This document shows, in pieces, positions 4,005-23,968 of a stretch of 24,893 bases of DNA. A model generated the notes under the pieces. It did no database searches and was not told the DNA's origin. It saw nothing but the letters and a program-made list of their open reading frames with translations. The number at the start of each line of letters is the position of its first letter. Within the stretch, counting starts at the first letter, position 1. The DNA is taken from positions 1 through 24,893 of IMG/VR virus record IMGVR_UViG_3300025108_000361. The stretch is one strand, 5' to 3'. A program made the translations under genes and the position numbers. This DNA comes from a virus.

Positions 4005-4755
4005 AGGCTTCCCCGTATTGAACTTCTAGTATGTGTGTTAAATCATCTGTGGGGTTACTTGCTTTATGCCAAGTACCTACTGAAATATCATATCCTTTTG
4101 TTAAGGGTAAAAGCTCTACAGTATCACTAATGTTGTTCCACTCTGTTTGCATTTTAACTTTGCCTTTTAGTACATACCAATGTTCTGATCTTTGAAAGTG
4201 TCTTTGATCAGAAAGACATGCACCTGGCTCAATTACTAATTCTTTAATTTTAAAATTGTTTTCAGGTTGATGATCTAATACTCTATACCAACCCCATTTG
4301 CGTTTTGTTTTAGGTGTTTTCCATTCTCCTAAAATCCAACTTGAACTGTTCTTTTTGTCTGTTCCGCCAACACCAAATTTAAATTCTACTCTTTTGTTGT
4401 CAGCAAATTTTGTTACTTCTGGTGAATTGCCTTCACCTCTATCACCGCCATTAGCAAACACTATCATGTCATGCATTGTTTCAGATGTTTTAAGTGCTAC
4501 TTCTATTGCACCACATGCAGATCCTTCCTTATCATCATCAAATGTAATAACATTGTCTACTACAGCAAGTTCTTTAATAATAGCAATTCTTTCTTGTACA
4601 GGCATAAACGGCATGCCTTTTTTGTTTGTTAACCATTCGTCACTGTTAACACCAACCCATAACTCGTTACCAAGTTCTTTGGCTGCTTTGAAATAGGCTA
4701 TATGCCCACTGTGTAAGGGATCAAACCCGCCTGTTACTAGTACGATTCTTTTCAT
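3973..4755 (-). CDS. Sugar nucleotidyltransferase (HldE-C/TagD-like) fused to a type II mannose-6-phosphate isomerase-like cupin
   Basis: Residues 1-140 form a cytidylyltransferase-like domain: VTGGFDPLHSGH carries the HxGH nucleotide-binding signature at 15-18, and VGVNSDEWL and QERIAII match the ADP-heptose synthase C-domain / glycerol-3-phosphate cytidylyltransferase pattern. Residues 152-260 form a cupin of the ManC/AlgA C-terminal type: WGWYRVLD, a basic and acidic metal-site stretch QRHFQRSEHWYVLKG at 184-198, GTWHKASNP and EVQYGEACVEEDIERRD. The expected role is activation of a sugar or alditol phosphate, with the cupin acting as isomerase or epimerase on a related sugar. This is the first gene of the glycan operon. 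The ATG at 4755 follows a perfect TATAAATA box by 5 bp and has no Shine-Dalgarno. I see no linker frameshift, so the fusion looks genuine. Confidence 0.8.
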   Translation of the reverse strand: MKRIVLVTGGFDPLHSGHIAYFKAAKELGNELWVGVNSDEWLTNKKGMPFMPVQERIAIIKELAVVDNVITFDDDKEGSACGAIEVALKTSETMHDMIVFANGGDRGEGNSPEVTKFADNKRVEFKFGVGGTDKKNSSSWILGEWKTPKTKRKWGWYRVLDHQPENNFKIKELVIEPGACLSDQRHFQRSEHWYVLKGKVKMQTEWNNISDTVELLPLTKGYDISVGTWHKASNPTDDLTHILEVQYGEACVEEDIERRD

Positions 4756-4760
4756 ACTAG

Positions 4761-4768
4761 TATTTATA
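4761..4768 (-). promoter_or_regulatory. T4-type late promoter, leaderless arrangement (glycan operon)
   Basis: On the minus strand the box is TATAAATA, a perfect match to the T4 late consensus. It is followed by CTAGT and then the ATG at 4755. The 5-bp spacing puts the expected transcription start at or next to the A of the start codon. No Shine-Dalgarno is visible upstream. Confidence 0.75.
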
Positions 4769-4790
4769 TGCGCAGTTTATGTAAAGAAAA

Positions 4791-5246
4791 TTAAATGGTT
4801 GCGTCGTCCAAACCAGCTGTTCTTAGTTTGACGATATTAGATACTTGCCATTGTTTAATGTCTAGTCCTTTGATAATGCCTAGCCATTTATTACGTAATA
4901 ATGCAAACTCGTTAATAATTTTTTCAAAGTCTACAACATCAGCTTCGCCATCTACAAATTTTTCAGCATCTCTAGAACTTAATTGACGTTGATAATTTTC
5001 AACATATTTTCTAAAGTGTGTGCTACGTAAACGGCGAAGCTCAATGTTTAAATATTCGAGTATTGCTTCGATCTCTTGTAACTGACCAAATCTAGTTTCT
5101 ACAATTGCAGGCATTTGTGCTGATGCTTTTTCAAGACGTCCAACAACATTTGTTTCTTTTTTAGCCTGTAATAATTCTGCTTCGTAGTACTGCACAGCGG
5201 CAGGTATCTTCGAAATATCTTTAGAAACTTGATCGTACCAGTTCAT
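4791..5246 (-). CDS. uvsY: UvsY-like recombination mediator
   Basis: The protein has 151 residues (T4 UvsY has 137) and is predicted to be largely helical. The C-terminal block LRNKWLGIIKGLDIKQWQV followed by LRTAGLDDATI matches the conserved end of UvsY homologues in marine T4-like phages as I recall them. UvsY loads UvsX onto gp32-coated single-stranded DNA. It is last in the order gp32 - uvsX - small protein - uvsY on one strand, so the three interacting proteins share a transcription unit. The start at 5246 has a GAGG Shine-Dalgarno and touches the stop of the upstream gene. No terminator is seen between this stop and the late promoter of the glycan operon, so read-through into that operon is possible. 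Confidence 0.8.
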   Translation of the reverse strand: MNWYDQVSKDISKIPAAVQYYEAELLQAKKETNVVGRLEKASAQMPAIVETRFGQLQEIEAILEYLNIELRRLRSTHFRKYVENYQRQLSSRDAEKFVDGEADVVDFEKIINEFALLRNKWLGIIKGLDIKQWQVSNIVKLRTAGLDDATI

Positions 5247-5501
5247 TTAATCCTCATCGTCCCAAATTGCATCTTCGACGTCTTCATCGTAATTAGTGTC
5301 GCCGTCATCTTCGTCTTCAGTTACATACTCAATTGCAGTATCCAAGTATGTGTCAATACCAAAGAGTTCGTTGATTGCAATTTCAGATACTCCGTGGTCC
5401 ACTAAAGCAGTAACAAAGTTTTTTGCTACTTCTTGTTTTTCCTTCTCAGGAACATGTTCTGACACTACGTTCCAAATGTCAGCAATAAGATCAGATTGCA
5501 T
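5247..5501 (-). CDS. Conserved-type small acidic protein of the recombination module
   Basis: This protein has 84 residues. Residues 1-60 look helical (NVVSEHVPEKEKQEVAKNFV). The tail from about residue 61 is almost entirely Asp and Glu (EDEDDGDTNYDEDVEDAIWDDED), giving a strongly acidic C-terminus. I do not recognise a named family, although small proteins of this general kind sit next to uvsX/uvsY in related phages as far as I recall. It lies 14 bp after the uvsX stop and abuts uvsY. A GGAG Shine-Dalgarno sits about 10 bp before the ATG. An acidic tail in this module might mimic DNA or contact gp32 or UvsX, as the acidic gp32 tail does in T4; this is speculation. Confidence 0.7.
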   Translation of the reverse strand: MQSDLIADIWNVVSEHVPEKEKQEVAKNFVTALVDHGVSEIAINELFGIDTYLDTAIEYVTEDEDDGDTNYDEDVEDAIWDDED

Positions 5502-5515
5502 AGATTTCTACTCCA

Positions 5516-6589
5516 TTATTCAGTTGGTTGTTCTTCGAAGACTTCCTCGTCGACCTCGACAGGTGTCTCTGTTACAGGTGTATTTATGATATCGTCCATA
5601 ATTATCTGTAATTTATCTCCAGTCCATGCTTTTCGATATTCTAGCATAACTTCGCCAGTTGCTGGACTTGTATACTCAAGTCTATTACCTGACTTTTTAA
5701 GATATCCTTTTGCTTCGAACAATTCAATCAACCCACTGTGTGGATCCATGCCTGTTTCGTATGGTATTTCAACTTGTACACTTTCAAATGGTTTGTTGTA
5801 ACGTGTTTTCATTACCTTACACGCTGCTCTAATACCATGTACTTGTGAAGTTTTGTTACCGTCTGCGTCTACTTTAAGTTTAAGTTTCTTAATAGCTACA
5901 ACAATACTAGAAGCATATACAAACCCTTGTCCACCGCTAATCTTATCATCTGGATCAAACATATCCTGTGATGCATACGTGTGGTTAGTACATACCATAC
6001 CTACATTGTAACTACCAATCATGTTAACTGTGTTACGAACAAGTGCAGTCAATGCCTTAGGCTTACGACCCATGTCACCTTTCATATCACCTTTTTGGAA
6101 TTGGTCAACGTCAGTAGGTGTTAATAACATACCTAACGAATCAATTACAAATAATACTTTAGGACGTTCTTCTTCAGTCATATCACGATATTCTTTCATG
6201 AACTCTGATACTGTTTTAGCAACGTCATCAATCATTGACATGTTAAGTTTAAGTAGTTTATCTTCTGAAGTATCTACGTCAAGTGCTTGTAGCCACGCTT
6301 CGTCAAGTGCGTTCTCTGAGTCAATAAGAACTACAAAGATGCCTTGTTCTTGTGCAGCCTTTACAATGTTTGCTGAACAGAAGTAACTCTTACCACTACC
6401 TGATTCACCTGCAAACACTGTTACCTTACCAAGTGGAACACCTTTATTAAAGTCACCACTTACAAGATAGTTTAGTGCATAGTTTCCTGTGCTGACCCAA
6501 TCAGTTGGATCATTAAAGCCAATACCAAGTCCGTCAATGCTCTTAGTGATTGTCTTTCTGAATTTACTTATATCAAATGCTTTCGCCAT
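5516..6589 (-). CDS. uvsX: UvsX RecA-like recombinase
   Basis: This 357-residue RecA-family ATPase (T4 UvsX has 391) polymerises on single-stranded DNA and drives strand exchange in recombination-dependent replication. The Walker A motif is GESGSGKS at residues 61-68. The Walker B strand is VLFVIDSLG near residue 150. The FNDPTDWVSTGNYALNYLVSG stretch (split here as FNDPTDWVST and GNYALNYLVSG) is typical of UvsX rather than bacterial RecA. The ISGGQG segment (around residue 220) lies where DNA-binding loop 2 is expected. The C-terminus is acidic (VDEEVFEEQPTE). The start has AGGAAAGG upstream. It follows gp32 and a structured intercistronic segment. Confidence 0.93.
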   Translation of the reverse strand: MAKAFDISKFRKTITKSIDGLGIGFNDPTDWVSTGNYALNYLVSGDFNKGVPLGKVTVFAGESGSGKSYFCSANIVKAAQEQGIFVVLIDSENALDEAWLQALDVDTSEDKLLKLNMSMIDDVAKTVSEFMKEYRDMTEEERPKVLFVIDSLGMLLTPTDVDQFQKGDMKGDMGRKPKALTALVRNTVNMIGSYNVGMVCTNHTYASQDMFDPDDKISGGQGFVYASSIVVAIKKLKLKVDADGNKTSQVHGIRAACKVMKTRYNKPFESVQVEIPYETGMDPHSGLIELFEAKGYLKKSGNRLEYTSPATGEVMLEYRKAWTGDKLQIIMDDIINTPVTETPVEVDEEVFEEQPTE

Positions 6590-6670: not shown

Positions 6671-6677
6671 TACACAA

Positions 6678-8126: not shown

Positions 8127-10508
8127 TTAGTAAGCACCAGCTAAGGTTTTGATTCTTTCGAGTTCTTCGATTTCTTCTGCGCCTTGCTCTTGTGCCGGTG
8201 CCATACGCTCTACCATTTTACGAGCAACTTGTCCTGCATGTTCGCCGAACTTCTTGTCTACCATAGTAGCAACACCTTCTGGACCTTTTGGAAAAGTACC
8301 ACTTTGTCTATCGTACATGCTTACAATAAATTGTGCTACTTCGTTAATATCATATGACTTGCCATCAACTTCGAAAGACTTTTTACCAGCTTTTTTGGCT
8401 TTATCCATTGCGCCTGAAAACTTGTTGCCTTCGCCAAAATCTGGCTCATCTTGTTTTTCAATATGATTGCCTTCGTCATCAAAGTCTGTGTCAACCATAT
8501 CAATTGCAAACATAGCATCAGCTGCGTCATACTTGCCATTTCTAATTGCATCTTTAACTTTGTCTTTTGGCATTTTTAATTTGTGATCTTCGTCTGTAAA
8601 GTCACCTAAAATTTCTTCAGCACCAATTAACGCATCACTTACTCTACCTTCTTTTTGTGTTCCTTCGTGTTGTTTATGATCTGCGTTATCGTATGTTTCT
8701 TGTGCGTCCTCTTGACATGCTGCCATTAACTCGTCCATGTCTTGCATTTCAAGATCCATGTCAGCATCAAAACCTAATTTACTGTTACCGTCCATTTGGC
8801 AATCAAGTGATATTGATTTAGGATCAACTACAATTCTTACTGGTCCGTCATCGCCTTCAATACTTGCTTTATACGATACAGTGCAAGGTGTCATTTCGCC
8901 GTCATCGCCTGTTCCTTCCCATTCAAACTCGCCTTCGAACTCGTCTGGCATAAAACCTTCTTGTTGTGGCTCTGCTTGATCAGCACTTACTGCTGGCTCA
9001 TCAACCATATCACCAAAGTCTAATGCTTCTAGTTGCTCAGGTGCATGTTCTTCTACCCATGCTTTAACAAGTGGACGAGCATCGCCGTTTGGATCTTCCT
9101 TTGCCTTCATTTTAATATCGTTAAACAGTCTGTTGTCTTCGATAATACCTTTTAAACTTTGAATAGCATTTGTGCCATCTACGCCTACTGGAAAGTCTTG
9201 GCTTACTAATTCATTTAGACTTGCAACTGCCTCTTTAATTTCTTCGTCGCTGCCTGCTGTAAGTGGTGAATCTTCACCTAATGCCATTGCCCAATTTTCA
9301 AATGCTGCAAACGGATCACTAGATTCATCCATGTCATGTATGCCGTTACCATTATCATCAACCCAATGTCCTCCATTCTCATCGTGTGAGTCATGATCAC
9401 AATCGGTTGTAGGTTTGTGCATTACATCTCCACAATCCTTACAATGATACTTGTCTGATTCAGTTTTTGTCATTTCGACTATGTCGTCATAGCCTACAAT
9501 TTCATCTTCTTTCATTAGTCTGTATAGTACAGGAAATACTGATGTTAAATCTTCTTTAAAATTTCTTACTGTAAATTGATCTTTAAATTGCTCCATTACA
9601 TCATCTGGAACTTCCATTGCCTCTGGTGCCTGGAAACTTTCTACATATGATTCGTAGTGAGCCTGTTTAGACATTTTTGCAATTCTTTCTCTAAGGGAAT
9701 CAAGTTGGCCTTTGCTACGTTCAACAACTGAATTTGTGTCGGAGTTCATTAAGTCGTTACGTACAACATAGCCTGTGAAACTTTTTAATTGTGCAATCTC
9801 TTCACTCATTTTAATAATGCTTTCACCAATTGCATCATATGGAGCACCACCATTTGCAACGTGTCTTTGCATAGCTCTTGCGCCTGCTAAGTGAATGAAA
9901 GGATATTTAAATCTTTCACCTTCTTGGTTTTCAACAAACAAAGCAGCAATATTTCTTGATCTATCACCTGGCTTCATTTCTGTATCATCAGCAAGTTTTT
10001 TACTGTGCTTAATAATTAATCTTGTATCTTCCAATTTTTGGAAGCTCTGTTTCTTAGTCCCGTATAAGGTGCTCTCGTTCATTTTATTCTCTCCGACTGG
10101 TTTTACTATAGTGTCATTATCTGCTTGAGGATTTGAATATTGACTTAGGAATGCATAATCCCTTTGGTCTAGATTGTCTTTAGCAATGTCTCTAGTATCA
10201 AATGCTAGTAGTCGACGCTTACTAAACTTTCTTAATTCTTTTAAAAATCCGTACCAATTGTCTTTTTGTGAATCATCCATGCCTTCAGTAATACCATTTG
10301 AAAAGTATACTTTCATTGAATTTGCTTCAGCAAGACTAATACTCACGTGTCCAATGTTCTTATCTCCTTCATTATAATCGAAGTCAAAGAATCTGGCTTC
10401 CTCTGGGTTTATAGTAATTGACCCAGCGGCATCTCCTAATTTTAAACCTTTGAATCTGCTTCTAATTTTATAGAACAGATCGGTTGCTATGTTGTTAGTT
10501 GCGTCCAT
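8127..10508 (-). CDS. Large acidic virion-module protein (793 aa), function unknown
   Basis: A TTG-initiated frame begins further upstream, but the ATG at 10508 is chosen because it sits 5 bp after a GATAAATA late box, as at other genes here. Residues about 1-300 form a conserved-looking block (for example LLAFDTRDIAKDNLD, FIHLAGARAMQRHVANGG, KMSKQ). At about 356-381 there is a Cys/His cluster (CKDCGDVMH...DCDHDSHDENGGH), followed by DDNGNGIHDMDE, which resembles a Ca-binding D-x-N-x-N-G loop. A long Asp/Glu-rich region follows. The last 90 residues (FIVSMYDRQSGTFPKGPEG, KKFGEHAGQVARKMVERM) again look conserved. I recall similar large unnamed proteins in marine T4-like phages. A structural or decoration role is possible but unproven. 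Confidence 0.75.
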   Translation of the reverse strand: MDATNNIATDLFYKIRSRFKGLKLGDAAGSITINPEEARFFDFDYNEGDKNIGHVSISLAEANSMKVYFSNGITEGMDDSQKDNWYGFLKELRKFSKRRLLAFDTRDIAKDNLDQRDYAFLSQYSNPQADNDTIVKPVGENKMNESTLYGTKKQSFQKLEDTRLIIKHSKKLADDTEMKPGDRSRNIAALFVENQEGERFKYPFIHLAGARAMQRHVANGGAPYDAIGESIIKMSEEIAQLKSFTGYVVRNDLMNSDTNSVVERSKGQLDSLRERIAKMSKQAHYESYVESFQAPEAMEVPDDVMEQFKDQFTVRNFKEDLTSVFPVLYRLMKEDEIVGYDDIVEMTKTESDKYHCKDCGDVMHKPTTDCDHDSHDENGGHWVDDNGNGIHDMDESSDPFAAFENWAMALGEDSPLTAGSDEEIKEAVASLNELVSQDFPVGVDGTNAIQSLKGIIEDNRLFNDIKMKAKEDPNGDARPLVKAWVEEHAPEQLEALDFGDMVDEPAVSADQAEPQQEGFMPDEFEGEFEWEGTGDDGEMTPCTVSYKASIEGDDGPVRIVVDPKSISLDCQMDGNSKLGFDADMDLEMQDMDELMAACQEDAQETYDNADHKQHEGTQKEGRVSDALIGAEEILGDFTDEDHKLKMPKDKVKDAIRNGKYDAADAMFAIDMVDTDFDDEGNHIEKQDEPDFGEGNKFSGAMDKAKKAGKKSFEVDGKSYDINEVAQFIVSMYDRQSGTFPKGPEGVATMVDKKFGEHAGQVARKMVERMAPAQEQGAEEIEELERIKTLAGAY

Positions 10509-10513
10509 ATAAC

Positions 10514-10521
10514 TATTTATC
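10514..10521 (-). promoter_or_regulatory. T4-type late promoter, leaderless arrangement (793-aa gene)
   Basis: The minus-strand box GATAAATA overlaps the gp17 stop codon (TGA at 10522-10520). GTTAT and then the ATG at 10508 follow. The box-to-ATG spacing is 5 bp, and there is no Shine-Dalgarno at a usable distance. Confidence 0.65.
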
Positions 10522-12109
10522 AAAATCCTGTACTTACGAAGATCGGCATTGGGAACTGATCTTCCGTCATTCTTTCTGTCATTTTATCGTAAATCTTAGG
10601 ATCCCAATCAGATAATACGTTAGCCATACGTACAATTAATAACGTTGCGGCCACTAAATCGTCATGTTCACCTGTTTTTGCACCGTACCCAACACCGTGT
10701 GCTACGAATGTTTTTAGCTCTGATATAAGCGGTTTACTGTGTATTTTCATCTTATTCTTTTCTAATAAGTTCTTTAATCCGCTACATGCAGTAATCTTTG
10801 TTTTGTGTGTAGTGTTAAATCCTTTCCTATAGCGTCTAACATGTCCTTTTCTAATAGGTTCACTTAAGAACAAGCCGTTAAAGTTTTCTTCGCCTATATC
10901 TGCAATAACAACAAGTGCTGCTTCGCCAATGGTATTGTTTTCTACACTATAATATATAGTAGGATTTGGATTACCGCCATTTGCACATTCGCTTTGAATG
11001 TACTGTAATATTTCTCTTAATGTTCTTACTTGCTGTTGTATTGGTGTTAAATTATGTCGCCATTCTCCTACCTGTTCCATACTAGGCATTTCAAATATTT
11101 GAATAGCACCATAGTCACCACCTGTACCTAAACTTGGATCCATACTTACTAAGTATGTTGCTTTAGGATTAATTTTCTTATACCAGCGTGTTTGACCTGT
11201 ATTCATAACAGGTTCTGATCCTTCTAGTTCAGCCAACTTAACACTATTAATAAGTGTTTCATCAAAGATTAAGAATTCACAATCAAATTCACGTCTAAAA
11301 CGTTCGTCACCAATCTTTGCTTTTTCTTGTGCTGCCCAGTCGTCATCTCTATCTGGATGTTCTGTCCAAGGAGCAAAGTAAGGAAAAAATCCGTTAGTAC
11401 CTACTCCCATATCATTACCATGATCGTCAAACTTTTTATTTGCTTCTGTCCAAATCATAGCAAACTGATCTTCGTCTGAGTTTGGTGTACTTGTAACAAT
11501 CGCTTTACCACCTGTTGACAGTGTAGGAGAAAGTGCAGTCCAAAACTCTTTGGCTTTCTCTGGGGGTTGCACAAATGCAAACTCATCACAGTATATTAAT
11601 GAAAGTGATTTACCACGTCCAGTATCTTCTGTTGTGGTAGTTGCTTGTATTCTACTACCGTTATCAAATTCAATTGTGTTTCTGTTGTATGTGTAGATAC
11701 CTGCACGAATAAAATCTGGCAAAGTTTCATAACCGTATCTATATCTATTCATAATATCCTGCGCACCTGTATATTTGTGTGCAGCAATTAGTACTTGTGC
11801 TTCAGGTGTAAACATAGTATACCATAATAAGTATCCAGCAGCACATGTTGTTTTACCCATCTGTCTTGGTAACATAGCAACACAGTATCTATTTTCTGCG
11901 TATGCTTGTATTAGCTCTCGTTGAAATCCGTAAGGAACAAACTTCATCGAGCCTTTTGTTGGGTGTTGAATAGATAAAAAGTTTTCGCAGAAATACAAAG
12001 GTCCTGTAATAGGATCCATACAAGCCTCTAAGTGCTTGACTTCTTCTAACGTATATTTTTGTTTGCTGTGGGCCTTCTTAATCTGAACGCCATCTAAACT
12101 CTTTGCCAT
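10520..12109 (-). CDS. 17: Terminase large subunit gp17 (packaging ATPase/nuclease)
   Basis: This 529-residue protein (T4 gp17 has 610) powers DNA packaging and makes headful cuts. The ATPase domain has an atypical Walker A, LPRQMGKTT, at 80-88, a Walker B, LIYCDEF, at 171-177, and a coupling motif, VTSTPN, at 205-210. The RNase H-like nuclease domain shows MDPSLGTGGDYG from residue 323 and a late GEHDDLVAATLL acidic pair near 488. The N-terminal region is shorter than in T4. The gene is separated from gp16 by three other genes. Its start lies 5 bp after an AGTAAATA box with no Shine-Dalgarno, directly after a terminator, so it begins its own transcript. Confidence 0.95.
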   Translation of the reverse strand: MAKSLDGVQIKKAHSKQKYTLEEVKHLEACMDPITGPLYFCENFLSIQHPTKGSMKFVPYGFQRELIQAYAENRYCVAMLPRQMGKTTCAAGYLLWYTMFTPEAQVLIAAHKYTGAQDIMNRYRYGYETLPDFIRAGIYTYNRNTIEFDNGSRIQATTTTEDTGRGKSLSLIYCDEFAFVQPPEKAKEFWTALSPTLSTGGKAIVTSTPNSDEDQFAMIWTEANKKFDDHGNDMGVGTNGFFPYFAPWTEHPDRDDDWAAQEKAKIGDERFRREFDCEFLIFDETLINSVKLAELEGSEPVMNTGQTRWYKKINPKATYLVSMDPSLGTGGDYGAIQIFEMPSMEQVGEWRHNLTPIQQQVRTLREILQYIQSECANGGNPNPTIYYSVENNTIGEAALVVIADIGEENFNGLFLSEPIRKGHVRRYRKGFNTTHKTKITACSGLKNLLEKNKMKIHSKPLISELKTFVAHGVGYGAKTGEHDDLVAATLLIVRMANVLSDWDPKIYDKMTERMTEDQFPMPIFVSTGF

Positions 12110-12114
12110 ACTAG

Positions 12115-12122
12115 TATTTACT
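12115..12122 (-). promoter_or_regulatory. Late promoter, leaderless arrangement (gp17)
   Basis: The minus-strand order is AGTAAATA, CTAGT, then ATG at 12109. The five bases CTAGT are the same as at 4755 and 13847. The box begins 1 bp after the T-run of the preceding terminator. Confidence 0.65.
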
Positions 12123-12123
12123 C

Positions 12124-12148
12124 AAAAAAATAGCACCCGAAGGTGCTA
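12124..12148 (-). terminator. Rho-independent terminator upstream of gp17
   Basis: On the minus strand TAGCACC, a TTCG tetraloop and GGTGCTA form a perfect 7-bp stem that is followed by seven T (12130-12124). It ends the unit of the 193-, 220- and 144-residue genes, 21 bp after the 144-residue gene's stop. Confidence 0.9.
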
Positions 12149-12169
12149 TTGAATCTTATAATAGCAGTA

Positions 12170-13266: not shown

Positions 13267-13847
13267 TATTTACTCCCTACAGGGCTCTTAGCACCCGCTT
13301 TGTCAGTTTTAATCTTAGGAACATCTGCAAAAACGTCTGCTTTTAGTTTGTCGTGTCCTAATTCCTTTTTACGTTCTTTAGCAGTTTTAGATAAGTCTTT
13401 CAAAAATGATTTGTTAAACTCATCACCAAAGTAGTCTTTGTATTTGACTTTGCCTGCTTCTTTATATTCGTTGTCGTGTAATAGTGCGCCTTCTCTTTTG
13501 TCATCATTAACTTGATACTCTTCAGTTGGGTTGGCACTGTTTCTTACTTTACAATGTTCTGCTGCGCAACCACAATCTTCACAACATGCCTTATGTACTT
13601 CTAATGGAGTAATAGGATAGTTTGTAACAAGATTAAATGTAGTTACTTCCATATTAGACAACTCTGGAAAATCCAAAGGAACTTCCGTAACTGGTGTCTT
13701 ATTCATTTCCTCGCAAGTTACTACTTCTCTAGAAGCCATGCAGGCCTTTAGTCTATCGCAAAAGCCTTCAGGAACTTCGCCTGCTACTTTTACGTTGAAG
13801 CTGTATACTTTCTTGCTTTCTGTCAAATATTCATTGAACGTTTTCAT
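13266..13847 (-). CDS. Unrecognised 193-aa protein with MKTFNEYL N-terminus and Cys cluster
   Basis: The N-terminus MKTFNEYLTES is of the kind found on several virion and scaffold proteins of T4-like phages (MKTF-E-[FY]-L). A cysteine cluster, KACCEDCGCAAEHC, spans residues 87-99 (Cys at 88, 89, 92, 94, 99), with further Cys at 30, 36 and 45. This is unusual for a cytoplasmic phage protein and might bind zinc. The tail is Lys-rich (KTAKERKKELGHDKLK). Its start lies 5 bp after an AATAAATA box that overlaps the gp16 stop codon. It heads the unit with the 220- and 144-residue genes and ends at the terminator 12124-12148. No enzymatic function is recognised; a head or scaffold role is possible from position. 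Confidence 0.6.
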   Translation of the reverse strand: MKTFNEYLTESKKVYSFNVKVAGEVPEGFCDRLKACMASREVVTCEEMNKTPVTEVPLDFPELSNMEVTTFNLVTNYPITPLEVHKACCEDCGCAAEHCKVRNSANPTEEYQVNDDKREGALLHDNEYKEAGKVKYKDYFGDEFNKSFLKDLSKTAKERKKELGHDKLKADVFADVPKIKTDKAGAKSPVGSK

Positions 13848-13852
13848 ACTAG

Positions 13853-13860
13853 TATTTATT
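13853..13860 (-). promoter_or_regulatory. Late promoter, leaderless arrangement (193-aa gene)
   Basis: The minus-strand order is AATAAATA, CTAGT, then ATG at 13847. Spacing is 5 bp. The box overlaps the TAA stop of gp16. A possible GGAAAGGA lies too far (about 13 nt) from the ATG to act as a normal Shine-Dalgarno. Confidence 0.7.
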
Positions 13861-14362
13861 CCTTTCCGCCTAATTTCTTCATAAGTTCGTTACGATCTAG
13901 CATAACATACCCAGATCCATTAACAATTTCATTGGGATCTTCGGGTGAATCTTGGTCAAGTTTAAGTTTTCTCATCTGCAAATCAACTGCTTTTAACTTT
14001 TTGTCAATTTTAGCAGATTTAGCATCTACTGCATTCTTAAGCATACTTCCAGCAACTTCAAAAATACGTCCACTGTAGCGTACCTCTACATTCATACCCA
14101 AATCCATAAGATCATCATATGCTTTCTCAGCTTTATCAGCTAAGTGATCTAGGTCTGATTCACCTAGAGTATCCAATTCTTTTACTGCGGGTAAATCCTT
14201 AGTAATGTTTTGGATTGCTTGATAACTTTGATCTACACTTTTTATTTCGGCTTCCATTTCTTCAGCCTTAACTACCGAAGTTTCAACCTCTGTTGGCTCT
14301 TCGATTTTAGGCTCTTTGTCCTGTTCTTCCAAATTAAAAAGTTCCTCTAATTTCTTTGTCAT
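13856..14362 (-). CDS. 16: Terminase small subunit gp16
   Basis: The protein has 168 residues (T4 gp16 has 164). After an acidic N-terminus come two long helices typical of the central oligomerisation domain: AEKAYDDLMDLGMNVEVRYSG (about 99-119, quoted here as YDDLMDLGMNVEVRYSG), then RIFEVAGSMLKNAVDAKSAK and LKAVDLQMRKLKL. The pattern R-x-x-E-V-x-x-x-M-L-K, with downstream GSGYVMLDRNELMKKLGG, fits small terminases of marine T4-like phages, where R-x-x-E-V-x-G-x-x-x-x and a final F/M-x-G/D-S/R-x-x-E-L are recurring. It recognises the genome for packaging with gp17. It follows gp4 by 8 bp. The start may use a degenerate GATAAGTA box at 14375-14368, also 5 bp from the ATG. Confidence 0.75.
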   Translation of the reverse strand: MTKKLEELFNLEEQDKEPKIEEPTEVETSVVKAEEMEAEIKSVDQSYQAIQNITKDLPAVKELDTLGESDLDHLADKAEKAYDDLMDLGMNVEVRYSGRIFEVAGSMLKNAVDAKSAKIDKKLKAVDLQMRKLKLDQDSPEDPNEIVNGSGYVMLDRNELMKKLGGKE

Positions 14363-14367
14363 ATTAT

Positions 14368-14375
14368 TACTTATC
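14368..14375 (-). promoter_or_regulatory. Degenerate late-box candidate at gp16 start
   Basis: The minus-strand order is GATAAGTA, ATAAT, then ATG at 14362. The geometry matches the other leaderless-type starts, but the box has a G in the AAATA core. No Shine-Dalgarno is visible. Confidence 0.25.
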
Positions 14376-15179: not shown

Positions 15180-16283
15180 TTATGTTCCTATATCCTGTCT
15201 TCCTACGCCGGTGCCGCCACGTGTTACTTTTTTCTTTGCAGTAGTAGTTCCGTTGGCTGCATCATTCTTCGGAAAGAATATTCCTGCTGCACCTGATATT
15301 GTATTTGAAATTTGTTGTATGCCACCTGGGCTTGTTAAAATATTAACACCTTCATTAATAATAGATTCTTTACTTAATCCTCTAATATTTTTATATGTGT
15401 TAACTGCGGCAATTGCTGTACCTAAAAATGACTTAGGACTATCAAATGCACTACCGTTACCAACAGCACCAAACACTGCTTCGAGTCCGTCAAGTACGCC
15501 GCCTTCTCCTAGTAGTAATCCTGTTCCTCCTCCTGCTATACCTAGTGGAGATGAAACTGTATCGTAGTGTAAGTTTGCAAAGCCTTTGGGCGAACCTTGA
15601 CTGACTGTTCCTGCTGTGTATTGCACTGCTTCGTATTGTAATGACATTGTGCTTTCAGCAGTTTCAGAACCTGCTGCCATTTCCATACCACCTGCTGTCC
15701 ACTGTTGTATTTTTGGATTAACTAGTGTGTAGCCAACAAAGCGTCTACGTCCCATTGTAAAGATAGTAACAGATTTAAAGAAGTCCGCAGTAGATCCGTT
15801 ATCAAAACCAAATGCATAATTGCCTGTTTCTTTATTTCTATATTGATCTCTATCAAACGCTGCTGTAGGATTAGATCTATCTGCAATGTAGTATCCATAG
15901 TATAAAGCCCACATAGCACTTATAACACCTTGGTTATCATCGTGCATAGTAAACTGCACAGGATCATATTGAATTCGTTTATATACGTTATGCTTTTTAT
16001 TATACTGGTTTAGTGTATCCATTTGGAAAGTAAACTTAGGTAAGTCTACTCCTTTAACTAACAGTCCTGTTTCTTCAGCATGTTTGCTTTTGAAGTGAGC
16101 AGCCTTAACTGCTATAGGATCCATTTCAAATCTAACGTAATAATTAAATTTAGTCTTAGGTGCAAGACGCATTGTGTTATCAATGAACAGTCTTGTGGCA
16201 TGAGTATAGTTACCCATAATACCTTTAGGTTGGGTAAGTCCTGTTGCGAAATCGCCTAAGAATCTTGTGAATTTATTTGCCAT
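15180..16283 (-). CDS. Tail-tube-fold baseplate protein, gp54-like tube initiator
   Basis: The protein has 367 residues. Residues 1-215 have tube-protein features: an N-terminus with FLGDFATGLTQPKG, then KFNYYVRFEMDPI, GLLVKGVDLPKF, NQYNKKHNVYKRIQYDPVQF and a final VNPKIQQWTAGGM, AESTMSLQYEAVQY. These are the strand-rich elements shared by gp19, gp54 and gp48. The Gly/Ala-rich C-terminal 150 residues (ending TTTAKKKVTRGGTG) lack a counterpart in gp19. The likely role is nucleating the tail tube on the baseplate; gp48 is the alternative. The start is 5 bp after a GCTAAATA box, with no Shine-Dalgarno, just downstream of the gp18-gp19 terminator. Confidence 0.65.
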   Translation of the reverse strand: MANKFTRFLGDFATGLTQPKGIMGNYTHATRLFIDNTMRLAPKTKFNYYVRFEMDPIAVKAAHFKSKHAEETGLLVKGVDLPKFTFQMDTLNQYNKKHNVYKRIQYDPVQFTMHDDNQGVISAMWALYYGYYIADRSNPTAAFDRDQYRNKETGNYAFGFDNGSTADFFKSVTIFTMGRRRFVGYTLVNPKIQQWTAGGMEMAAGSETAESTMSLQYEAVQYTAGTVSQGSPKGFANLHYDTVSSPLGIAGGGTGLLLGEGGVLDGLEAVFGAVGNGSAFDSPKSFLGTAIAAVNTYKNIRGLSKESIINEGVNILTSPGGIQQISNTISGAAGIFFPKNDAANGTTTAKKKVTRGGTGVGRQDIGT

Positions 16284-16288
16284 ACTAT

Positions 16289-16296
16289 TATTTAGC
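16289..16296 (-). promoter_or_regulatory. Late promoter, leaderless arrangement (gp54-like gene)
   Basis: The minus-strand order is GCTAAATA, ATAGT, then ATG at 16283, with the same 5-bp spacing. The box follows the terminator T-run by about 3 bp. CTAAATA variants are, as I recall, common in cyanophage late promoters. Confidence 0.7.
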
Positions 16297-16299: not shown

Positions 16300-16328
16300 A
16301 AAAAAAGCCCGGAAAATAAACCGGGCTT
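16300..16328 (-). terminator. Rho-independent terminator after gp18-gp19
   Basis: On the minus strand AAGCCCGG (16328-16321), an 8-nt A/T loop and CCGGGCTT (16312-16305) form a perfect 8-bp stem. T residues continue to 16300. It lies 23 bp after the gp19 stop. Confidence 0.92.
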
Positions 16329-19900: not shown

Positions 19901-20349
19901 TTCCACTCTTGAATTCCAAAAGCACTTGAACCGCTGTTGATCCACCACTTTCCGTCTGCTGGATTCGCTCCCGGAGCAGTTGTAGAACCTTCTAATTCGT
20001 CTAAGTCAACATCTGCACGTACAACAAAAGCTGAATTTGAAACGCCTAATAATGAATATGCTGAAAGCAATCCATATTCGTTTAATTCGCTTCCGTGTAT
20101 CGGAGTGTTGCTCGCTGTCTTTTTGAATGTTGGTACACCAAAAAGATCTACTAATTCTTTCTGTGAGGTAACTTTGTACGCTTTACCTGCGTTAGCTTTT
20201 AGCGTTCCAGCTGCTGTAGCCGTTCCCGCTGCGTTTAATTTATCTTGCGATGAAGCAATAACAATTAGAGGAGTTGTACCAGGCTCTGCTGGGGTATAAA
20301 ACGACTCGTCTATTACTGTTACTTCTACGCCTGGTGATGTTAATGCCAT
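16993..20349 (-). CDS. 18: Tail sheath protein gp18, with very large insertion
   Basis: The protein has 1118 residues (T4 gp18 has 659) and contracts during injection. Residues 1-115 (SPGVEVTVIDESF, GLLSAYSLLGVSNSAFVVRAD) and about 700-1118 (MTSYATDRWSTQ, LISCPGYTETMSNLVNLN, FFNGVGLVNYGQKTRARNAS, INVARLVVYLRSQLNKL) are sheath core. Roughly 120-700 is an insertion. It holds four copies of a DG-x-LW...W-x-G-x-x-W-type module at about 131-150, 365-396, 604-629 and 667-695, as found in phage fibre and adhesin proteins. It also holds two FTINGTxF-like modules (251-325 and 461-553) that resemble flagellin-IN repeats. The start has AGGAG with a conventional leader from a late box at 20415-20408. Confidence 0.92.
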   Translation of the reverse strand: MALTSPGVEVTVIDESFYTPAEPGTTPLIVIASSQDKLNAAGTATAAGTLKANAGKAYKVTSQKELVDLFGVPTFKKTASNTPIHGSELNEYGLLSAYSLLGVSNSAFVVRADVDLDELEGSTTAPGANPADGKWWINSGSSAFGIQEWNGAAVTTTGGQKFASKTPIVLTDDDASKIDNGAPKTSVGAIGDYAVVFETVDGSGSFSASKENATMWYKSAGNGSTVTQGSWVKVGSNDWTASHPTIIGTAMTASSGNFTINGTNFQITGTLDDLVTAINGAITETQGIVARNVSGRLYLYSDGSLDDGVGDSSKSNAIIIDDGLSSPQVTFADLGVAKGTYYGPELHIAPHTSVPEFKTGDSTPRPTGSVWVKTTEPNNGARWRASKWSAATLSWVSYTAPLYANNSSALYTLDRAGGGVNIPTDSLYVQTNAEENSGYDESPMTASFRVFRRAATGVTKITSAVVDASTFTVGGNTFTIAESVKTSGALAAGIAVNFTAAGNAADAELMAGAINSAGFTNIEAAVTSSNTVEIMHKLGGDFRITDGTNTPVGAAFTVFNINTGLGTANFYTAPAGASENYVASNWKPLAADDFAASSNAPLAEPADGQLWYNPEFSDVDMMIHNGTTWVGYHNFSSGYANCSPDGPIVSATEPKASSGQSDGTALVDGDLWISTASLEDFPTIYRWDGNNLAWVLVDKTDQTTEDGVLFADARYGLAGSTGNTAATIKDLLTNNYLDPDAPDPALYPKGMLLWNLRRSGGNVKKYNNNYIDLTADNTRFGDEAMTSYATDRWSTQSGNQEDGSGSFGRHAQRMVVVQALKSAIDTSSEIRDEETRNFNLISCPGYTETMSNLVNLNIDRGLTAFVIGDTPLRLAADATSLLAYGSNSALVVDNNDNGLVTYDEYLGAFYPNGFTTDLGGANAVVPASHMMMRTIALSDQVSFPWFAPAGTRRGGISNATSVGYIDSATGEFQTVALNEGQRDTLYGLKINPITFFNGVGLVNYGQKTRARNASALDRINVARLVVYLRSQLNKLARPYIFEPNDKITRDEVKQAVESLLLELVGLRALYDFAVVCDETNNTPARVDRNELYVDIAIEPIKAIEFIYIPLRVKNTGEI

Positions 20350-20407
20350 CTTTTTATCTCCTGGTAATATTTTCGTATCAGTCTATTACGTAAACTTGTT
20401 GCAATTG

Positions 20408-20415
20408 TATTTAGC
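20408..20415 (-). promoter_or_regulatory. Late promoter of gp18-gp19, with ordinary leader
   Basis: The minus-strand box GCTAAATA sits 58 bp before the gp18 ATG. Transcription would start near 20402, giving a leader of about 53 nt that ends in AGGAG. It contrasts with the leaderless-type boxes elsewhere, so both modes occur in one genome. Confidence 0.6.
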
Positions 20416-20467
20416 ACATCTTATAAAATTTACCCGGTTTAACCATTAGAAAAAGGGGTTGAAAAGG

Positions 20468-20475
20468 TGTAAATA
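20468..20475 (+). promoter_or_regulatory. Late promoter, leaderless arrangement (HNH gene)
   Basis: The plus-strand order is TGTAAATA, CTAGC, then ATG at 20481. The spacing is again 5 bp, although the gene lies on the opposite strand from its neighbours. Confidence 0.6.
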
Positions 20476-20480
20476 CTAGC

Positions 20481-20816
20481 ATGAGACCTCTTTGTAAGTG
20501 CGGATTACGGCCACGTGCTGTTAACTATAAGAAAGGTAAGCGTACCTACTATAGGAGTCTGTGTGAAGTTTGTAATAATCACGGACAATACACAGGTGTA
20601 CCTAGATGGGCTCGTGCTGGATATAAACAAAAGTCAGCATGTGATAAATGTGGATTTAAGTCACCACATCCTGAAGTATTTAGAGTACTTCATTTAGATG
20701 GAAACTTAGATAACTGTAGGCACAGCAATCTAAAGACAGTGTGTGCTAACTGTATTTCTGTGCTTTCTAAAGAAGGTATTAAATGGAAACAGGGCGACTT
20801 AACTGCTGACTACTAG
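20481..20816 (+). CDS. HNH-type zinc-binding putative endonuclease
   Basis: The protein has 111 residues. It contains two zinc-ligand groups: C5-x-C7 with C28-x2-C31, and C54-x2-C57 with C88-x2-C91. Between the last two lies VLHLDGNLDNCRHSNLKTVC, whose L-H-L-D-G-N...N-x-x-x-N-L pattern is the HNH catalytic core (His71 as the general-base position, Asn75/Asn83 as structural or metal residues). Homing-type or packaging-associated nicking are both known for HNH proteins; neither is shown here. It stands alone on the plus strand, convergent with the dNMP kinase gene (3'-ends overlap by 18 bp) and divergent from gp18. No Shine-Dalgarno is seen at the start. Confidence 0.75.
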   Translation: MRPLCKCGLRPRAVNYKKGKRTYYRSLCEVCNNHGQYTGVPRWARAGYKQKSACDKCGFKSPHPEVFRVLHLDGNLDNCRHSNLKTVCANCISVLSKEGIKWKQGDLTADY

Positions 20817-21419
20817 AGCTTTTACTTCGTTATATAAGTCGTCAATTTTCATATCATTGTGAATAGTATGGTCAAATTTAGTACCTACCCAAGCCCATTC
20901 TGAAGCATGTACTTTCTGTACTTTTAGATCATTAATTGCTATATTACTACCTGCATTTGCTTCAAGTGCTGTGTCATACCATTTAGGCAAACGTCCACGT
21001 TGTACCCATATCATCTTACCATTTTGATTCTTAATTGCTTTTACTTCATTAGGAAAACGTACATCACTTACAATAATATCATCTTTAGAATTACGTATTT
21101 TGTTCTCTAAACTAGCAATCCAAATATCATCATGAAAGCTCTTACGGCACACTTCAGTACCCCAATATTGCAATACCCACCTTGGTGTTAATGTTGGCAT
21201 TCCAAGTCTTTCTGCCCACCAAGGATCTACTTCTTCACGCCATTCACGTGCTTCTTTTGTTCTTCCTTCAAGTAAAGTTCGGTCCCATCCAAACACTGCT
21301 GCAACTGCATCTTTTAATGTATCAGCAAAACTTTCTCTTCTAAATTCGTGAAAGTTTACTAGATAATCAGCGACAGTGTCTTTGCCGCTACCGATAAAAC
21401 CACATACACCAATAATCAC
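20799..21419 (-). CDS. 1: Deoxynucleoside monophosphate kinase gp1
   Basis: The protein has 206 residues (T4 gp1 has 241). It opens with a beta strand and P-loop IIGVCGFIGSGKDTVADYL (Walker A G-F-I-G-S-G-K-D at about 7-14). The lid-side segment is RWVLQYWGTEVCR. A second-strand motif, DIIVSDVRFPNEV, around residues 115-127, is typical of phage dNMP kinases. It converts dNMPs to dNDPs for genome synthesis. The start is a GTG with AGGAG 9 bp upstream. A near-consensus sigma70 promoter lies upstream, so it is probably early or middle, unlike the structural genes on both sides. The 3'-end overlaps the HNH gene on the other strand. Confidence 0.9.
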   Translation of the reverse strand: MIIGVCGFIGSGKDTVADYLVNFHEFRRESFADTLKDAVAAVFGWDRTLLEGRTKEAREWREEVDPWWAERLGMPTLTPRWVLQYWGTEVCRKSFHDDIWIASLENKIRNSKDDIIVSDVRFPNEVKAIKNQNGKMIWVQRGRLPKWYDTALEANAGSNIAINDLKVQKVHASEWAWVGTKFDHTIHNDMKIDDLYNEVKALVVSS

Positions 21420-21449
21420 AAATATACTCTCCTAGTTAATATACTTTAC

Positions 21450-21478
21450 AGTATACTAGGATAGACAGTGAATGTCAA
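21450..21478 (-). promoter_or_regulatory. Sigma70-type promoter of gp1
   Basis: On the minus strand TTGACA (21478-21473), a 17-bp spacer and TATACT (21455-21450; one mismatch to TATAAT). An inverted repeat ATACT-GTAA-AGTAT (from 21453 down to 21440) overlaps the -10 and start region. It could form a small operator or hairpin. Confidence 0.8.
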
Positions 21479-21483
21479 GTATT

Positions 21484-21786
21484 TTATTTGAATTTATTAA
21501 GTCTTCTTACCAAACGAGTTGCTGTATTGATATTTTTGGTACGTGACTGACGTCTAGCCTGTTGAGGGCCAGTTCTAGCACGAGTAGTTTTCATACGTTG
21601 TGCTTGTGCAATGTTAGGATGATCCCAACATTTGGACGGGTGTGATACCTGTCTGCTTTTGCGTGGGCCTGATGGACAACGGAACTTCATTTTAACTGTT
21701 CCGCCTCTTGCAGTAGACTTACCTCTGCCCCAAACCATACCGTCGTATAGTTCTTCGCCTTCCCACATAAATTCTTCTGCTTTCAT
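21484..21786 (-). CDS. Small basic protein next to gp13 (100 aa)
   Basis: A longer TTG-initiated frame exists, but the ATG at 21786 overlaps the gp13 stop (TAATG), which matches the coupling used throughout, so 100 residues is preferred. The N-terminus is acidic (MKAEEFMWEGEELYDG). The rest is very basic and repetitive in Arg/Lys: VKMKFRCPSGPRKSR, MKTTRARTGPQQARRQSRTK and RLVRRLNKFK. The C-P-S-G-P-R and H-P-S-K-C-W-D blocks with two cysteines resemble a conserved unnamed protein of cyanophages as I recall it. The composition suggests nucleic-acid contact, perhaps during head filling or neck closure. That is inference. Confidence 0.65.
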   Translation of the reverse strand: MKAEEFMWEGEELYDGMVWGRGKSTARGGTVKMKFRCPSGPRKSRQVSHPSKCWDHPNIAQAQRMKTTRARTGPQQARRQSRTKNINTATRLVRRLNKFK

Positions 21787-22544
21787 TATCCTATAACCCA
21801 ACTATAACCGTGACCACCCGGAACTTGAGTTGTAAGTTCCATTGTTAGTCTTTCTAAATCTGCTGTACCTTCTGCTTTTAACGATGGTCCGTTTAGAGCT
21901 GTACCGCCCTGTGGACCTGCAATACTTGCAAATTTCTCTCTTGCTTGTCCTAACATTACTTTACAGTTTGCTAGTGTATAATCTTTAATCCATTGCCCTG
22001 CATATACATCTTGTAAAATTGTATAGTCAGGCTTTTCATTATATGCCCAAAGAAGTACTTGTTCTTCTCCTCTTGGACGCTGCATAATAATTAACTTTTT
22101 ACTTTGAGGATTCCAAGTAAAATTGATAAACGATCCAAACATCTTTCCAACAAGTTCTTGATACTGTGCAAATAATTCATAAGTTGCAAGTCCGCCCATG
22201 TTAGTTGAGCTTAACAAATATGTATTAGTGTATGCTAAGTTGAAAGGTTCAAACACTGTACCGCCTGTACCGTTACCTGTTCTACTACCAACACTTCTTC
22301 TATATATCTGCCTTACTTGCTGTATTTCATGTGGCAAAATATATTCGTTTTTATCTTTTTCTAGCGTAAGTGTTATGTAACTTTCTTCAACGGCATTGTC
22401 GCTTCGCTGTCGAAAAACACCTAAAGCACGTTTTAGTCCTGTATCATAGTGAATAGGATCTAGCTCGACATCGATCATTCCATCGCCTAGCATTGCTTTA
22501 CAATAGTCGAATACTTCTTGTTTTGCTGTTTCTATTTGGCTCAT
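21786..22544 (-). CDS. 13: Neck protein gp13 (head completion)
   Basis: The ATG at 22544 is selected because it follows a CATAAATA box by 5 bp; an upstream TTG would add 17 residues but would overlap the start of the divergent gp14 gene. The protein is 252 residues, somewhat shorter than T4 gp13 (309). Blocks that match marine T4-like gp13 as I recall them: IDVELDPIHYDTGLKRAL, FRQRSDNAVEESY, GGLATYELFAQYQELV, FINFTWNPQSKKL and REKFASIAGPQGGTALNG. gp13 and gp14 together close the filled head and form the tail-joining neck. Its partner gp14 is divergently oriented and starts 44 bp away. Confidence 0.85.
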   Translation of the reverse strand: MSQIETAKQEVFDYCKAMLGDGMIDVELDPIHYDTGLKRALGVFRQRSDNAVEESYITLTLEKDKNEYILPHEIQQVRQIYRRSVGSRTGNGTGGTVFEPFNLAYTNTYLLSSTNMGGLATYELFAQYQELVGKMFGSFINFTWNPQSKKLIIMQRPRGEEQVLLWAYNEKPDYTILQDVYAGQWIKDYTLANCKVMLGQAREKFASIAGPQGGTALNGPSLKAEGTADLERLTMELTTQVPGGHGYSWVIG

Positions 22545-22549
22545 ATAAG

Positions 22550-22557
22550 TATTTATG
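22550..22557 (-). promoter_or_regulatory. Late promoter, leaderless arrangement (gp13)
   Basis: The minus-strand order is CATAAATA, CTTAT, then ATG at 22544, spacing 5 bp. It is back-to-back with the gp14 box 15 bp away. Confidence 0.65.
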
Positions 22558-22572
22558 CCTTTCGCAACTTTA

Positions 22573-22580
22573 GGTAAATA
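22573..22580 (+). promoter_or_regulatory. Late promoter, near-leaderless (gp14)
   Basis: The plus-strand order is GGTAAATA, GTTAT, ACG, then ATG at 22589. GTTAT is the same spacer as at 10508. The predicted start would lie at the ACG, leaving a leader of about 3 nt. Confidence 0.55.
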
Positions 22581-22588
22581 GTTATACG

Positions 22589-23968
22589 ATGCCAAGACTC
22601 AGTTTATATAGACCCGAAAAAGGGAACGATTACAAATTTCAAGATAAAACCGTTTGGGAAATGTTCCAAGTGGGCGGTACCGATGTATTAGTACACAAGT
22701 ACATAGGCCCAGGAAATTCACAGGAAAACACACCATCAACACCAACATATAGTACAGATGATCCTACAAATATTCAGGATATGCTGTTCTTAGAAAATAG
22801 AGATCGCAAGTATGATCCAGATGTTTACAGATTACGTGGTGTATATAATGTACAAGACATTGATTTTAATCTAAGTCAGTTTGGCTTATTTCTACAAAAT
22901 GATACAGTGTTTATTACATTTCATATTAATGATACTGTCGAAAAACTAGGTAGAAAAATTATGTCAGGCGATGTTATTGAATTGCCTCACTTAGATGACG
23001 AACATGCTCTTAATGATTTAAATTATGCACTAAAACGTTTTTATGTAATTGAAGATGTTAATCGTGCAGCAGAAGGATTTTCAAATACATGGTATCCACA
23101 CTTGTACAGAGCAAAGTGTAAACCATTAGTAGATTCACAAGAATTCAAACAAATTTTAGATGGTATAGCAGACCAAGAAGCACTAAAAGGTACTTGGAAT
23201 GCTGAGTCAACTTACTTCCCAGGAGATATAGTTATTGCTCCTAATGGTGAAAAGTATCAAGTTATATCAGAAGTTACAGGTGTTGAACCACCTAACTCAA
23301 CTTATTACAAACTTGCAGATACACTCAAAGATATTATGAGTACGTATGAAAAAGAAATGCAAGTTACACAAGCGGTACTTGATCAAGCTGAAGCAGATTC
23401 ACCAGAGTCAGGTTATGACACTAGTAGATTTTATACTATGCAAACTGACAATCAAGGTAACACAGAACTTGTTACAGCTGACAGTGATGACTTACTAATT
23501 CCTAGTACAGACAAAGATGGTAATACATTACTTGATGACAAAGGTAACGAAGTTTATATGTCTGTTACTGCTGACACTGCATACCAAACACCAGAAGGTA
23601 ATGCATATAAAGGTTATCTAATTGGTGACGGGTTACCAGAAAATGGTGCACCGTTTACACAAGGTATAGCATTTCCTCTCAATCCTATTGAAGGACAATT
23701 TCACTTACGTACTGATTACAAACCTACACGCTTGTTTAGATTTGACGGAATACGTTGGAGAAAAACTGAAGATGATGTAAGAATGACAAGAAGTAACTTA
23801 GGTCCAAGTCAAGTAGGTGCAGGTAAAGATTTTGCTGGACACGATCCTGCAATAAGTAAAGGTAAGGATTCATTTATTAACAACACAACAGTTAATAATA
23901 TAGGTGGTAAACAAATTGAAGAGAAACAGAGTTTGAGTAAAGCTCTTAGACCCAAGGCAGACGATTAA
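22589..23968 (+). CDS. 14: Neck protein gp14
   Basis: The protein has 459 residues (T4 gp14 has 256). The core, residues 1-195, has blocks characteristic of marine T4-like gp14 as I recall them: LSLYRPEKGNDYKF, MFQVGGTDVLVHKYIGP, FLENRDRKYDPDVYRLRG, DFNLSQFGLFLQNDTVF and NTWYPHLYRAKCKPLVDSQE. The end LRPKADD also fits. Residues 201-242 resemble a CBM5/12-type sugar-binding module (GTWNAESTYFPGDIV with GEKYQV and YYKL). At 366-391 there is a fibre-type module (IEGQFHLRTD...LFRFDGIRW) like those inserted in gp18. gp14 joins head and tail with gp13. The divergent promoter is next to gp13's. Confidence 0.8.
   Translation: MPRLSLYRPEKGNDYKFQDKTVWEMFQVGGTDVLVHKYIGPGNSQENTPSTPTYSTDDPTNIQDMLFLENRDRKYDPDVYRLRGVYNVQDIDFNLSQFGLFLQNDTVFITFHINDTVEKLGRKIMSGDVIELPHLDDEHALNDLNYALKRFYVIEDVNRAAEGFSNTWYPHLYRAKCKPLVDSQEFKQILDGIADQEALKGTWNAESTYFPGDIVIAPNGEKYQVISEVTGVEPPNSTYYKLADTLKDIMSTYEKEMQVTQAVLDQAEADSPESGYDTSRFYTMQTDNQGNTELVTADSDDLLIPSTDKDGNTLLDDKGNEVYMSVTADTAYQTPEGNAYKGYLIGDGLPENGAPFTQGIAFPLNPIEGQFHLRTDYKPTRLFRFDGIRWRKTEDDVRMTRSNLGPSQVGAGKDFAGHDPAISKGKDSFINNTTVNNIGGKQIEEKQSLSKALRPKADD

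Follow-up and report, generated by a model that had tools for sequence, protein, structure and literature searches.

When a late-promoter box lies five bases from a start codon, where does the messenger RNA begin? The question is raised by the 24,893-base virus record IMGVR_UViG_3300025108_000361 (the whole stretch analysed, hereafter the window), which by PHROGs matches belongs to a T4-related phage, carries genes for structure and replication, and has several genes with the hexamer TAAATA exactly 5 bp before ATG. In T4, the textbook case of late transcription, late genes have ordinary leaders. With a probability of about 0.88, the sites in the window are T4-type late promoters whose transcription start (+1) would fall on, or about one base from, the A of the start codon, giving leaderless mRNAs. 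A gp55-like sigma factor would most likely read the boxes, the first base of the RNA would be the A of ATG or a near neighbour, and ribosomes would initiate on a 5'-terminal AUG without a Shine-Dalgarno (SD) sequence. The late genes of this lineage would thus use two main modes, one with the box at 4-5 bp and no SD, the other with the box at least 16 bp away and a leader that often carries an SD. In a smaller class the transcript would begin at an A and often have a three-nucleotide leader, ACU, before AUG, and some early-type genes would have sigma70-type promoters placed in the same way.

Late boxes at a fixed distance from ATG

The first-pass annotation had listed seven TAAATA-N5-ATG sites, all of which are present at the starts and on the strands claimed. 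It had added an eighth start, which has TAAATA-GTTATACG-ATG, a spacing of 8 bases, and a degenerate box at 14362, which proves to be TAAGTA-ATAAT-ATG. These sites, together with the gp18 start as a contrast, are as follows.

4753..4766, minus strand: late box TATAAATA (TAAATA at 4761-4766), CTAGT, ATG 4755 of a 260-amino-acid (aa) nucleotidyltransferase-like gene (heptose-type nucleotidyltransferase match, PHROGs)
10506..10519, minus strand: late box, GTTAT, ATG 10508 of a 793-aa virion structural protein gene (PHROGs)
12107..12120, minus strand: late box, CTAGT, ATG 12109 of the terminase large subunit gene (PHROGs)
13845..13858, minus strand: late box, CTAGT, ATG 13847 of a 193-aa gene with a weak virion structural protein match (E 0.00076, PHROGs)
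14360..14373, minus strand: variant late box TAAGTA, ATAAT, ATG 14362 of a 168-aa gene with a weak terminase small subunit match (PHROGs)
16281..16294, minus strand: late box, ATAGT, ATG 16283 of a 367-aa tail tube-like gene (PHROGs)
20470..20483, plus strand: late box, CTAGC, ATG 20481 of a 111-aa gene
22542..22555, minus strand: late box, CTTAT, ATG 22544 of the head-tail adaptor Ad2 gene (PHROGs), half of a divergent pair
22575..22591, plus strand: late box, GTTAT, ACG, ATG 22589 of a 459-aa virion structural protein gene, short-leader class
20347..20413, minus strand: contrasting late box TAAATA at 20408-20413, long leader, AGGAG, ATG 20349 of gp18

The functions proposed earlier are matched for packaging, neck (adaptor), tail tube and nucleotidyltransferase; the match of 13847 is weak, and the product of 20481, which we take by eye to be HNH-nuclease-like, has no PHROG match. 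The normal leader expected for gp18 is present, with AGGAG.

TAAATA-N5-ATG occurs 7 times in the window, compared with a mean of 0.64 in 100 shuffles (largest count 3). TAAATA alone is under-represented (23 copies against 35 expected), thus the excess lies in its spacing to ATG. Two sets of relatives were compared: set A, the best 80 of 558 terminase-related loci from viral contigs (78-100% identity; contigs up to 363,943 bases), and set B, the best 80 of at least 600 loci obtained with the PA5oct terminase as query (53-59% identity to PA5oct). Genes in whole contigs were called by a simple purpose-made caller, and counts of distinct sites include related sequences.

The scan for a 5-bp peak in relatives over a shuffled background, proposed with the annotation, bore it out. 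Six large relative contigs offer 2,015 candidate ATGs, and the box stands at 5 bp before 58 of them, compared with 2.38 on average in 200 dinucleotide shuffles (maximum 7); when every hexamer is scanned without bias at 40 distances, TAAATA at 5 bp again ranks first (57 vs 6.05). Distances in these contigs are bimodal (15 at 4 bp, 58 at 5, 8 at 9-15 and 128 at 16-35), with a sharp peak at 5, a shoulder at 4, few sites at 6-15 and a broad hump from 16. For distinct sites before open reading frames (ORFs) of at least 60 codons, set A has 182 at 5 bp, the runner-up being 30 at 31 bp; set B peaks at 5 bp (82 sites), with 42 at 7 bp. In contrast, the five cultured T4-like genomes together have 2 sites at 5 bp where shuffling gives a mean of 3.98: gene starts of T4, S-PM2, KVP40, GAP32 and PA5oct show no 5-bp peak (0-2 sites each), and their hump lies further out. 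The raw pattern gave 126 matches against 21 for its reversed control in ten relative contigs, and 85 against 77 in 14 cultured records (T4 10 and 5, Atu_ph07 15 and 9, 121Q 6 and 11, Munch 8 and 11). The contrast with T4 drawn earlier therefore holds in the five cultured genomes, and the layout differs from T4 and the cultured relatives examined. A trait common to all T4-like phages is ruled out by the gene-start test in those genomes, and chance or AT-richness by the shuffles in the window and the six relative contigs.

The fused genes lack SD sequences. In the six contigs, SD words precede 5 of 83 genes with a box at 3-7 bp, 80 of 135 with a box at 16-44 bp and 395 of 831 others; an SD-poor genome is ruled out, since other genes of the same contigs carry SD. 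In the window, the statement that none of the starts has a usable SD broadly holds, with the qualification that two purine stretches, AAAAGGTG at 20481 and AAAGGA at 13847, adjoin the boxes directly on their 5' side, 11-12 bases from ATG; the latter still lies inside the preceding gene, at its very end. A recurrent purine element, AAAGGGG...AAAAGGTG, occupies 20450-20469, just 5' of the 20481 box, and is seen in many ortholog upstreams. Unusual folding of the mRNA start was also considered; mean energies over the first 36 nucleotides (nt) are -1.44 for leaderless genes, -2.21 for leadered genes with SD and -2.43 for other SD genes, a weak difference that is confounded by base composition and is not used as evidence.

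Two promoter types with predicted transcript starts on ATG

In T4, TATAAATA spans -13 to -6 (PMC1524935), and the 8-bp TATA box is described as sitting roughly a helical turn ahead of the start (PMC2988020); given the T4 position, a 5-bp spacing puts +1 on the A of ATG. At this spacing, the base before ATG is T in 118 and C in 33 of 151 distinct sites (set A, ORFs of at least 100 codons); at 421 SD starts it is A in 207, T in 130, C in 54 and G in 30. By a looser count, A precedes ATG at 5 bp in about 1% of set A (n=158) and 4% of set B (n=73). A pyrimidine at -1 followed by a purine at +1 is the usual initiator. From the T4 numbering and the T or C followed by A found at this position, we infer that transcription would start six bases past the box.

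Slightly longer spacings point to the same position. Where the box lies 7 bp from ATG, A stands at position 5 in 80% of 15 sites in set A and 90% of 39 in set B; at 8 bp, A stands at position 6 in 5/5 and 10/10. The arrangement ACT-ATG is found among 11/15 sites at 7 bp and 3/5 at 8 bp in set A, and 17/39 and 8/10 in set B. With an A at the start position and ACT before ATG, these sites look like an identical start followed by a leader of 3 nt. The member of this class in the window (22575-22591) has the triplet ACG, as opposed to the ACT frequent in relatives.

Promoters of another type are also placed on ATG. TTGACA peaks 29 bases before ATG, with 24 sites in the six contigs and 13 at the next distance; the five cultured genomes have 5 sites at 29 bases and their maximum, 11, elsewhere. 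Among 150 complete sigma70-like sites in the six contigs, distinct ATGs follow the -10 element at 5-7 bp in 22 cases, at 8-24 bp in 15 and at 25-35 bp in 50, and 16 ATGs lie exactly 6 bp past it, while the five cultured genomes, with 166 such sites, have ATG at 5-7 bp in 3. Examples of TTGACA-17-TATAAT with a predicted +1 on ATG occur in contigs G001, G002, G006, G008 and G009 (e.g. L175:2945-3195 and L121:10516-11567). The genes concerned include a DNA primase in G001 (in G002, G006, G008 and G009, genes with similar first residues follow such sites), as well as an exonuclease, initiation factor IF1, DnaJ, MazG, a cytidylyltransferase-like protein and a dNMP kinase; some are unmatched. In our view, nothing argues more strongly for placement of the transcript start than the agreement of two promoter types which, although their offsets differ, each lead to the A of ATG. 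The earlier description of a distinct late-gene strategy is thus supported in its substance and too narrow in its scope, since sigma70-like promoters would put +1 on ATG as well and the leaderless layout is one of two modes.

Conservation, mode switching and alternative explanations

The spacing is conserved in orthologs of each site. Counting distinct upstreams, the box lies at 5 bp in 22/23 for 4755 (the remaining one at 25 bp with an SD), in 31/31 for 13847, in 26/27 for 16283 (one at 4 bp), in 6/6 for 22544 and in 25 of 27 for 20481 (of the other two, one lacks TAAATA and one has it at 27 bp with an SD). For 10508, 26/36 are at 5 bp and 10/36 at 7 bp. The 33 terminase upstreams have 25 boxes at 5 bp, 4 at 4 and 1 at 6; three lack TAAATA, with TAAGTA in its place at 5 bp in one of them. 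At 14362, TAAGTA lies 4 or 5 bp from ATG in 31 of 36 orthologs, and the other 5 have TAAATA at 18-27 bp. Orthologs of 22589 have the box at 7 bp, ending ACT-ATG, in 6/6, and that of contig G003 at 5 bp. A search for SD words flags 25/31 of the 13847 orthologs because of an AAAGGA-type stretch just 5' of the box.

Moreover, orthologous genes switch between modes. Nine gene families are mixed between box-5-ATG and box-leader-ATG; for example, members of the 13847 family read TAAATA-CTACT-ATG in L066 but TAAATA-ATGTATAAGGAATTACA-ATG in L300, and the 20481 and 4755 families include leadered members with SD. The short-leader items of the mixed families have SD words in 0/70 cases, and the leadered terminase items examined are also without them. 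For eight families placed on a tree of the terminase gene (terL), 18 mode changes were counted in all, with TAAATA and TAAGTA boxes at 4-8 bp pooled as one mode and 68 loci with neither a box at 4-8 bp nor an SD word excluded beforehand; the tree is from FastTree only, 31/125 of its inner branches are below 80, and PC14 was dropped. Genes gp18 and gp19 always keep SD words (60/60 and 92/92 loci).

The alternative that survives best accepts a real late promoter, but has the protein made mainly from read-through transcripts, by translation coupled to the preceding stop codon or by non-SD initiation, with the short transcript minor. It draws on the 13847 box, whose TAA serves the gene before it as stop codon, on 10508, where the preceding gene terminates immediately before the box, and on the purine-rich stretches 5' of two boxes. 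We nevertheless consider it improbable, given what precedes several of the starts. Two boxes follow terminator-like hairpins:

12124..12150, minus strand: intrinsic-terminator-like hairpin with its T tract, its end 3 bases short of the late box of terminase
16300..16328, minus strand: intrinsic-terminator-like hairpin AAGCCCGG...CCGGGCTTTTTTT, its end 5 bases short of the 16283 box

Upstream of terminase the folding energy is -16.0 kcal/mol, which includes another hairpin, and a CTATTT T-rich tract occupies the hairpin position in 31/33 ortholog upstreams (the tract only, the 5' arm lying outside the compared stretch). The hairpin before 16283 folds at -22.6 kcal/mol, with a GGG(C)TTTTTT tract at its position in 27/27 ortholog upstreams. 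In addition, 22544 and 22589 diverge, with two back-to-back boxes in the 44-base gap between them and thus no upstream gene to couple. The hairpins and the divergent pair leave scant room to supply an upstream leader, and coupling would leave unexplained why the spacing is fixed at 5 bp, why a pyrimidine stands at -1 and why leadered orthologs have an SD.

Phage start codons are frequently misassigned, and the true starts might lie downstream with SD of their own, the ATG near the box then sitting in a leader. However, ATG, GTG and TTG follow the box at 5 bp in 158, 1 and 3 cases in set A and in 73, 5 and 3 in set B, so GTG and TTG are nearly without a peak. In six box-fused families the third codon position varies in 10/10 of codons 2-11 and positions 1 and 2 in fewer, while such codon-type variation is absent 5' of the ATG; gp18, with its normal leader, behaves likewise. 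Mis-called starts are ruled out by the near-lack of a peak at GTG and TTG and by the coding pattern that begins at ATG, and downstream starts in general are very improbable. Equally hard to credit is an RNA-level signal, TAAATA acting as an AU-rich initiation enhancer and no promoter, since, although AU-rich sequence 5' of start codons generally favours initiation, the same box stands 16-35 bp before other genes and is the late promoter in T4, S-PM2 and KVP40, and a different promoter type has its own offset that likewise ends on ATG.

Several observations weigh against leaderless late transcripts or narrow their extent. In the nine mixed families, SD words precede only 50/94 leadered items, and they precede 34/295 leaderless ones. 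Neither box nor SD word is found before terL in 2/78 set-A and 15/81 set-B loci (L227 counted), and an SD word is present in 4/81 set-B loci. Set B has a small GTG bump at 5 bp (5 sites; at most 2 at other distances from 0 to 15). The purine-rich stretches 5' of two boxes could be weak SD on a read-through transcript. The sigma70 support consists of 22 distinct sites in the six contigs, with 1 site at 5-7 bp in set A and 4 in set B. Finally, the gp45 clamp (phrog_223) was matched in T4 only, 1/14 records, where a diverged clamp could be missed, so that coupling to a clamp as in T4 is no more than a possibility in this lineage.

Machinery, known systems and biological meaning

The gp55 family (phrog_234) is found in 6/10 relative contigs (E 2e-23 to 5e-26), as well as in PA5oct, Phosso, GAP32 and T4. 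Of factors that act on the ribosome, IF1 homologs occur in 2/10 contigs (G001:C1:264590-264775 and G002:C1:2998-3192) and S21 in 1/10 (G001), also in PA5oct. IF3 was set aside as a phage factor, with no match to the IF3_C profile in the 10 relative contigs, which may be fragments; it is found in GAP32. Contig G001 also has 28 clustered tRNA genes, with three more tRNA calls outside the cluster and one call resembling tmRNA (L113:12111-17855, L116:18488-18862). In the window itself, neighbouring translations of the minus-strand genes at 1-4004 share the similar motifs ALVTFNSNAA, VVNINSNAATEA and AMNSMAALES, which gives the impression that these genes may be a repeated family, perhaps glycan-related.

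Among 50,697 records, the best cultured-phage terminase matches are Pseudomonas PA5oct and its kin, at 53% identity. A scan of genome contigs gave a single terminase relative, at 65%, in a 7.6-kb contig of a metagenome-assembled genome labelled Betaproteobacteria bacterium TMED41, possibly a binning error. Mapped on the terminase tree, the trait occurs throughout the set-B loci and the clade of the window, although some loci are without it. L228, which with L229 is sister to PA5oct, has the trait; the PA5oct region and L301 do not. The simple reading suggests that PA5oct lost it, the deep forks of this FastTree-only tree being open.

The closest known system is the T4 late promoter with gp55, gp33 and gp45, with which the lineage shares a TATAAATA-like box, a gp55 homolog in 6/10 relative contigs and use before structural and packaging genes; T4 and four other cultured genomes differ in having no 5-bp peak and a hump from about 16 bp outwards, and gp45 was matched in T4 alone. 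The cultured T4-like jumbo phages CBB and GAP32 likewise have an ATAAATA motif before structural genes (PMC5259590). GAP32 differs in having no boxes at 4-8 bp, and the part of the CBB description used for comparison (PMC5259590) does not mention fusion to ATG; for gp45, that paper reports the same lack of a match in CBB. Leaderless mRNAs are reported for Thermus phage phiYS40, where most middle and late mRNAs have no leader and infection raises IF2 and lowers IF3 (PMC3594737). The host of phiYS40 is another one, and the present lineage has no IF3 match in 10 contigs and an IF1 match in 2/10. In Deinococcus-Thermus, a -10 element directly 5' of ATG yields leaderless mRNA (PMC12340547); the promoter element abuts ATG as it does here, but those are cellular genes with a TANNNT motif, as opposed to a phage late-sigma box, and here the fused class coexists with a leadered SD class using the same box. 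A paper on phage AR9 describes phage transcripts as "often leaderless", which lowers the novelty. Leaderless transcripts are also reported to escape inhibition by kasugamycin (PMC5230787). Leaderless phage mRNAs and -10 boxes adjoining ORFs are thus already known; what is new here is T4-type late promoters as the route. No report of late boxes fused to ATG in T4-like phages was found among the titles and abstract openings searched, a search that did not extend to subscription papers and preprints.

A broader scheme is possible but doubtful: a lineage of uncultured T4-related jumbo phages might run a dual programme in which early sigma70 and late gp55 promoters are each either fused to AUG, leaderless or behind a 3-nt ACU leader, or set back with an SD, phage IF1 (in two relatives) and S21 (in one) might tune the ribosome, virion proteins might be made when SD-dependent initiation is limited, and PA5oct, the closest of the cultured relatives, might have lost the arrangement.

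For annotation, gene callers that depend on SD may misplace starts in these phages. For phages far from cultured ones, the agreement of two promoter types offers evidence for transcription start sites from sequence alone. For the lineage itself, orthologous genes found in both modes, with repeated switches between them, form a natural series in which the cost or gain of leaderless translation in bacteria becomes testable.

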